64,000 nt of DNA from Chrysogorgia sp. JL179-B06 (lineage: Eukaryota; Cnidaria; Anthozoa; Scleralcyonacea; Chrysogorgiidae): contig JAYKKM010000504.1 in assembly GCA_035772405.1 (NCBI GenBank), positions 359,001 through 423,000 on the forward strand. Reading direction: 5' to 3'. Positions 52,011-52,753 of the stretch are shown in pieces. A program made the translations under genes and the position numbers. The notes under the pieces are model-generated. The model searched no databases and was not told the origin of the DNA. It was given only the letters and a program-made list of their open reading frames with translations. Every line of letters starts with the position of its first letter. Within the stretch, counting starts at the first letter, position 1.

Positions 52011-52057
52011 ACTACAGACGGTACCGTTTCGGCCTTATGGGCCTCATCAGTGTAGTG
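52011..52057 (-). ncRNA. Hammerhead ribozyme, copy 1
   Basis: On the minus strand: stem I ACUACA...UGUAGU (6 bp), core CUGAUGA, stem II GGCC-CAUAA-GGCC, core GAAA, weak stem III in the palindrome ACGGUACCGU, and cleavage triplet GUC. All conserved core positions are present. Stem III cannot form a good hairpin alone (CGG/CCG with no proper loop) but pairs perfectly between two copies, as in the dimeric hammerheads of animal repeats and retrozymes. Confidence 0.87.
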
Positions 52058-52239
52058 CTGATGAGCAGGATGAAGATGACTGCTATTTACAGTCACCCTT
52101 GATGCACACAAAATGTGGGACATCAAGAACCATGCCAGAGCGCTCAACTGCAAGCAGTGAGCGTGCGCACAATGCGTAAGCGACAATGGTTCATCCTGTA
52201 GAGCGCTCAATATGGCCTAAAGGTCATAGAGCGTATCTA

Positions 52240-52286
52240 ACTACAGACGGTACCGTTTCGGCCTTTTGGGCCTCATCAGTGTAGTG
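52240..52286 (-). ncRNA. Hammerhead ribozyme, copy 2
   Basis: Same structure as copy 1 with stem II loop CAAAA instead of CAUAA. Core, stems I to III and GUC are identical. Confidence 0.87.
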
Positions 52287-52753
52287 CTGATGAGCAGGAT
52301 GAAGATGACTGCTATTTACAGTCACCCTTGATGCACACAAAATGTGGGACATCAAGAACCATGCCAGAGCGCTCAACTGCAAGCAGTGAGCGTGCGCACA
52401 ATGCGTAAGCGACAATGGTTCATCCTGTAGAGCGCTCAATATGGCCTAAAGGTCATAGAGCGTATCTAACTACAGACGGTACCGTTTCGGCCTATATATA
52501 TATATATATATATATATATATATATATATATATATATATATATATATATATATATATATATATATATATATATATATATATATATATATATATATATATA
52601 TATATATATATATATATATACATATATATATATATATATATACTAAAACGAATGTGATGTTGTTCACGGAACGTTGAAAGTGCTCAATACCATAAAGGTA
52701 GAGCGAATATATAGTGAAAGTGGTCTTACCTCAAAATGATAAAATCCGCAACT

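Follow-up and report, generated by a model that had tools for sequence, protein, structure and literature searches.

The closest described systems are the metazoan non-LTR retrozymes (Cervera and de la Pena 2020, PMC7229834), among which those of Acropora millepora (220-240 bp), in the part of the paper considered here, come nearest in size to the element reported below. Penelope elements are their suspected helpers, and the same part of the paper gives no rule for priming. The LTR retrozymes of plants (PMC4918200, PMC7761336) are also described as non-autonomous retroelements with a hammerhead-made circular RNA, a feature which they would share with the present element, whose circle is only predicted. 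They differ from it in their type III hammerhead, their length of about 700 bp, their LTRs, 4-bp target duplications and Ty3-gypsy helper, as given in the available text of PMC7761336. A third system is the Poseidon element of Anolis (PMC11167929), one of the Penelope-like elements with minimal hammerheads, which resembles the present element in its type I hammerhead, an insertion end downstream of the cut, an AT-rich target and an internal start of reverse transcription. However, Poseidon is described as autonomous and protein-coding. Copying begins 111-118 nt inside the ORF, about 85-92 nt past the cut in the account consulted, compared with 6 nt in our case.

The element lies in a stretch of 64,000 nucleotides (hereafter the window) of the Chrysogorgia sp. 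JL179-B06 assembly GCA_035772405.1. TRF reports a tandem array at 52011-52493 with a period of 229, 2.1 copies and 99% matches (features are collected in Table 1). The near-identical 229-bp units of the preliminary description are thus confirmed: the two full units are separated by a single base at position 52037, in hammerhead loop II. The array corresponds to two turns plus 25 bp and its 5' end falls in stem II, at unit position 211, which is also where the array of another sampled locus (L024) has its 5' end. As described for metazoan retrozymes in the portion of PMC7229834 considered, the element combines a type I hammerhead with an organization in dimers to multimers and no long ORF was found here: ORFs of at least 120 aa in the window all lie clear of the array, in which the longest stop-to-stop stretch is 73 aa. 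Its size falls in the range of retrozymes, whose units measure about 150-450 bp and occur as dimers to multimers. Sampled arrays that have the usual 3' end (see below) extend to about 1.3 kb, and many copies are shorter than one unit. The GC content of the unit (49.3%) is under the 50% of the text of PMC7229834 and above the <45% of its Figure 1C legend. The likeness is drawn from the features described in that source. The retrozymes are the best-supported family, and most likely the correct one, on account of the length of the unit, its type I hammerhead, the presence of tandem copies, the high number of dispersed copies and their recent spread. The retrozyme reading proposed initially therefore holds for unit length, hammerhead, copy number and dispersal, but not for tandem repetition as the typical form nor for a ribozyme acting only as a dimer.

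Table 1. Coordinates of the retrozyme array, its hammerheads and the neighbouring features in the window
Feature	Position	Strand	Remarks
Type I hammerhead 1	52011..52056	-	27.7 bits, E 1.4e-4 (Rfam Hammerhead_1); predicted cleavage between 52017 and 52016
Type I hammerhead 2	52240..52285	-	31.0 bits, E 1.2e-5 (Rfam Hammerhead_1); predicted cleavage between 52246 and 52245
Retrozyme unit nearest the RNA 3' end (unit 1)	52011..52239	-	229 bp, loop II CAUAA
Second retrozyme unit	52240..52468	-	229 bp, loop II CAAAA
25-bp partial unit, RNA 5' end	52469..52493	-	cleavage site and stem III, without catalytic core
UGUAGU, 3' strand of stem I, last hammerhead	52011..52016	-	abuts (TA)n; junction common to most sampled copies
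CUCAUCAG, exact complement of core CUGAUGAG	52287..52294 with 52272-52279	-	fold prediction
Equivalent core-blocking pair in unit 1	52058-52065 with 52043-52050	-	fold prediction
(TA)17 microsatellite	51978..52011	.	RNA 3' side of the insertion
(TA)75 microsatellite	52493..52642	.	RNA 5' side
Element X, with third hammerhead (minimal type) at 52786-52744	52642..52786	-	between TA tracts
Presumed Penelope-like retroelement remnant	53316..55100	-	ORF piece 53975-54655; ends in (TA)n; extent approximate, by eye

In RNA sense, each unit reads ACUACA-CUGAUGA-GGCC-loop-GGCC-GAAA-CGGUACCG-UC^UGUAGU, with a stem I of 6 bp and a stem II of 4 bp. No clear loop 1 appears in the folds, which cannot display tertiary contacts. 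The complete minus-strand type I hammerhead attributed to each unit is borne out both by the Rfam model and by a descriptor scan. The covariance-model search proposed earlier matches the two minus-strand hammerheads, although both scores are below the gathering score of the hammerhead model (34), and a default Rfam scan of the window returns four tRNA matches and no hammerhead. The descriptor scan, run on both strands of the window, finds the same two plus the divergent third one within element X and no plus-strand hammerhead; five shuffled windows used as control contain none. Judging from this anatomy, the two hammerheads of the array would release one 229-nt monomer. The initial view that the ribozyme works only as a dimer is not supported, since stem III can be formed within one unit by 2 bp and a GUAC tetraloop. 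A 2-bp stem with a tetraloop is similar to invertebrate hammerheads as presented in PMC7229834, within the text considered. Three pairs are found in stem III when the circle is folded with the hammerhead enforced, so that the dimer-only (newt-type) situation, where this stem is too short within one unit, is not supported either. The palindromic CGGUACCG also permits pairing between two units in the fold of a linear dimer.

In the 781-Mb, 522-contig assembly the hammerhead pattern has 1405 exact matches (683 + 722) and its reversed control has none. The 229-bp unit used as DNA query gives at least 102 matches, with 40 of 1064 candidates scored, many of them at 99-100%. This genome-wide search, suggested at the outset, thus reveals dispersed copies and the 1405 matches exclude a single-locus tandem duplication. 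A mid-unit pattern has 929 exact matches compared with 1405 at the hammerhead, a difference predicted by 3'-anchored copying, the two patterns being unequal in length and tolerance. Outside the genome the hammerhead pattern occurs in five viral and four bacterial contigs (L081-L089). These were rejected as retrozyme copies: their flanks and stem III differ and none is retrozyme-like by eye.

Copies were inspected at 80 loci, composed of the best whole-unit matches (L001-L030, biased to full length), the first hammerhead-pattern matches in contig order (L031-L060) and 20 of 58 further regions (L061-L080). They hold 78 unique arrays, one of which was dropped because it lies at a locus edge (n=77). 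Three pairs of loci (L031/L032, L028/L029 and L079/L080) are likely segmental duplicates, their flanks being alike by eye, and the events are therefore somewhat fewer. The contig-order sample (L031-L080) was picked by an intact hammerhead and consequently misses pieces without one.

The RNA-sense 3' end is found just past the cleavage site in 67 of the 77 arrays while the opposite end is variable. In 49 of those 67 arrays, TGTAGTTAT continues after the cleavage site. The contig-order sample shows the usual 3' end in 43 of 46 arrays, with TGTAGT intact in 34 of the 43. Across the whole assembly, 796 exact instances of the junction GGTACCGTCTGTAGTTATATATATATA are counted, and none in the control. 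Its layout is GGTACCGTC-TGTAGT-(TA)n, which can equally be written GGTACCGTCTGTAGT-TATATATATATA; the shared junction thus lies six bases past the predicted cleavage site, inside TA repeats. The window copy is one T short of the commonest form. By comparison, the cleavage site leads straight into 14 A/T bases 21 times genome-wide (control 4); 15 of these cases are TA-like by eye and five of the 15 are on one contig. According to a cruder count, (TA)5 or more follows within 24 nt at 33 of the 63 distinct GGTACCGTCTGTAGT places of L001-L080, the rest of which include unit-to-unit joins. Ten of the 77 arrays have an unusual 3' end: two in L011 and one in L036 enter TA directly from another point, that of L049 resembles the usual site with changes, and the remaining ones are mixed.

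Pure TA runs of at least 10 within 45 nt are present on the 3' side of 69, on the 5' side of 64 and on both sides of 59 of the 77 arrays, compared with 2.1% of random 45-mers of the window and 5.5% of points 600-1300 bp away. This double flanking points to the TA tract as the target, rather than as a tail made by slippage. Target duplications, which in metazoan retrozymes are longer than 4 bp when present (PMC7229834, in the part considered), are not discernible inside TA tracts. Retrozymes of this sort are already known. The junction, in contrast, was not found in print within the literature covered: the main text of PMC7229834 does not contain the terms 'microsatellite', 'TA repeat' or 'AT-rich', the text of PMC7761336 contains neither 'microsatellite' nor 'insertion', and the listed titles and abstract openings on retrozymes, hammerheads and Penelope mention neither insertion into TA tracts nor this junction.

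Measured to the cleavage site, the arrays are between 45 and 1278 nt long, their 5' ends being variable. Among the 43 arrays of the contig-order sample with the usual 3' end, 25 are shorter than one unit, 5 correspond to about one turn within a few bases and 13 are longer; 12 of the 43 have room for two complete hammerheads. Tandem repetition, previously given as the hallmark of retrozymes, is therefore not typical of these copies. The stub at L052 measures only 45 nt to the cleavage site, yet its hammerhead is whole: a start immediately beyond the 3' strand of stem I would leave a whole hammerhead at the 3' end even of short insertions. The shared 3' junction, the TA tracts on both sides and the 5' truncation together provide a testable clue to retrozyme movement. 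Two other candidate signals were set aside. The excess of one-turn arrays (5/43 within 2 nt) was rejected as proof of a circle because arrays of several turns (L006, L008, L015) end at the same place and because matching between the junction and TA can account for it. Primer annealing was rejected as the selector of the start site: UAGAUA after the junction matches TATATA at 5 of 6 positions, but other stretches rival it. Position 155 of the unit matches (TA)4 at 6 of 8 positions, and better TA-like stretches than the start site exist in the unit. What is retained is the location of the start beside the hammerhead.

Long arrays mix units of 228-231 bp with 220-bp units that have lost one side of stem II. 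Such mixed arrays are found at G000:C391:1226375-1228679 (L016), C320:145554-147467 and C32:1922714-1923848. In L016 the order of unit types recurs with a spacing of about 1400 bp, which would be the pattern left by copying of a larger circle or block.

We propose, with a probability of roughly 0.6, that 52011-52493 is one copy among many of a non-LTR animal retrozyme whose predicted circle was reverse-transcribed into (TA)n from a fixed site past the ribozyme. According to this proposal, transcripts reading through arrays that hold two or more hammerheads would self-cleave and the monomer, spanning UGUAGU to GUC, would be closed into a circle by a host RNA ligase. A reverse transcriptase, most likely Penelope-like, would then open a TA tract and start directly 3' of stem I. 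The cDNA would begin with the complement of UGUAGU before crossing the ligated junction, and the enzyme would round the circle until falling off, so that copies would range from part of one turn up to several.

The junction also bears on the nature of the template. A linear monomer released by cleavage has GUC as its last bases, and its insertions would show the cleavage site leading straight into A/T instead of the junction of the 796-copy kind. The respective counts (796 and 21) indicate that linear cleaved RNA is not the usual template. To judge from its sequence, the TGTAGT junction needs an RNA with GUC and UGUAGU in continuity, which may be a ligated circle or an RNA left uncut at this point. 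Most likely the predicted circle served as the usual template, copying having begun at a single internal position next to the hammerhead. The junction could also arise from an uncut multimer or from a linear read-through RNA carrying a (UA)n tail. At five variable sites, the alleles agree within arrays in 58/58, 69/76, 74/75, 85/86 and 85/86 unit pairs, compared with 56-84% between arrays, and substitution divergence is 0.7% within and 1.8% between arrays. The uniformity within arrays is what would be expected if one short template was copied over and over; it would also be compatible with the copying of an array that was already uniform.

The tailed read-through RNA is the basis of a SINE-like alternative, in which the (UA)n tail would anneal to TA targets, the hammerhead would be irrelevant to the template and the junction inherited from copy to copy. 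This would account for the TGTAGT-(TA)n junction and for TA targeting without a circle, and AT-rich microsatellites near LINE 3' ends have been described (PMC8969392, in the part considered). However, the hammerhead would remove the (UA)n tail. Moreover, no source is provided for new multi-unit arrays with arbitrary 5' ends and near-uniform alleles, unless older uniform arrays were copied. We consider this route rather unlikely.

For the circular template, folding predictions raise a difficulty. The 229-nt circle folds at -81.4 kcal/mol, compared with -73.7 kcal/mol with the hammerhead enforced. In the circle fold the core CUGAUGAG is paired with CUCAUCAG, located 7 nt upstream, with probabilities of 0.93-1.0 for 7 of the 8 pairs. 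An exact 8-nt complement of the core occurs in 77 of 20000 letter-shuffled units. By this prediction the hairpin would conceal the core in the putative circle, which makes it a candidate lock. This differs from most metazoan circles, where the hammerhead is reported as free to fold and a block other than self-pairing is thought probable (PMC7229834, in the part considered). The predicted hairpin would slow cleavage, which counts against the explanation preferred here. A search for selection on the blocking arm gave no sign of constraint (variant cells 32/1003, compared with 270/16969 in the remaining unit) and this idea was abandoned; variant rates inside the hammerhead were left unused because L031-L080 were picked by an intact hammerhead.

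A more specific version of the circular-template proposal can be put forward tentatively, as possible rather than probable: a Penelope-type reverse transcriptase may dock on the folded ribozyme of the closed circle, as on a landing pad, and copy from the base of stem I into TA. If true, this would supply the missing priming step of animal retrozymes, with the blocking hairpin keeping the circle closed until then, and a complete ribozyme would be rebuilt at the end of every insertion. The shared junction, TA flanks and 5' truncation allow a definite in-vitro test, with a purified Penelope-type protein acting on the 229-nt circle and TA-tract DNA.

The array adjoins, on the same strand, a retroelement remnant which we take to be of the Penelope type from features of its sequence. 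This remnant carries a hammerhead-like motif near its 3' end. Its ORF has 111 database relatives, many with PF26215 and some with an RVT_1 domain (6.7e-10 in P0038, the one relative examined). The Pfam search gives no match for this ORF itself nor for the ORF at 57922-58407, and comparison of the Penelope ORF with solved structures yields no convincing match (one at E 0.067). The 3' part of the remnant has at least 41 matches in the genome, with 40 of 464 candidates scored. Among 20 Penelope 3' ends inspected by eye, 13 run into TA tracts, one (L101) does not and the remaining six are cut short or ambiguous. Of the 13, three (L091, L092 and L095) are on the contig of the window and are apparent duplicates of its locus. 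All 20 ends exhibit the hammerhead-like CTGAAGA...GAAA upstream. Penelope copies do not have one fixed 3' end, their end points being different. The TA target thus appears common to Penelope copies and retrozymes while the start rule does not. Within L001-L080, BLAST finds the Penelope 3' end only at the window's own place.

A Penelope-like element is nevertheless the likely kind of helper. The Poseidon-type Penelope protein of Anolis initiates reverse transcription internally, at a site without homology to the cleaved DNA, and shows a preference for AT-rich DNA in vitro (PMC11167929, in the part considered). By analogy, internal initiation would be what an endless template needs. The same text states that the Poseidon hammerhead requires the protein for in-vitro cleavage and is dispensable for insertion: insertion of catalytic mutants was normal, activity persisted in RNA trimmed beyond the ribozyme core to ORF position +20, and unprocessed RNA was judged to be the main substrate. 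From the mutant and truncation results, the Anolis enzyme needs neither hammerhead nor circle, which speaks against a role for the ribozyme and lowers the odds of the landing-pad version. Alternatively, the same circular template could be copied by the reverse transcriptase of a LINE. The window does contain an RVT_1-family reverse transcriptase (28473-29222), which we read as of LINE type, and the published retrozyme model leaves LINEs open (PMC7229834, in the part considered). However, internal initiation and cleavage of AT-rich DNA are reported for a Penelope protein (PMC11167929), and a LINE helper seems unlikely to us. An ordinary satellite, expanded by tandem duplication and unequal crossing-over with incidental TA tracts, is very improbable: some arrays are indeed long, with units bearing a deletion of about 9 bp on one side of stem II, but the dispersal of the 1405 hammerheads and the shared junction already contradict it, as do the 25 of 43 sampled copies under one unit and the TA flanks on both sides of 59 of the 77 arrays.

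TA tracts are a common target in this genome, which weakens a one-to-one link between the retrozyme and any helper. Element X carries a hammerhead with stem I AUUCGC/GCGGAU, core CUGAAGA and a palindromic stem III, for which there is no Rfam hammerhead match. It lies beside retrozyme arrays at two further places (L014/L015/L075 and L068), with the same end point in TA. A tandem family of 277-280 bp with a tRNA-Ala-like part is found at 45796-46550, flanked by (TA)n, and fragments of it are present at 19511-19905, 53177-53280 and 58302-58496. Inspected by eye in L001-L080, its arrays share a single end point (...GCCAAATATTACC) within TA tracts at some ten places, an arrangement resembling that of the retrozyme, but the descriptor scan of the window found no hammerhead in it. 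Such a tandem, tRNA-SINE-like family seems unusual. A foldback of about 190 bp (52857-53047, 92% self-complementary) is located between TA/GA tracts and matches plant-miRNA models below their cut-off. Finally, 1602-2469 and 977-1364 are occupied by long tandem arrays of a degenerate 21-bp repeat similar to GACTATTTAGGACTACAGGAG and to its complement.
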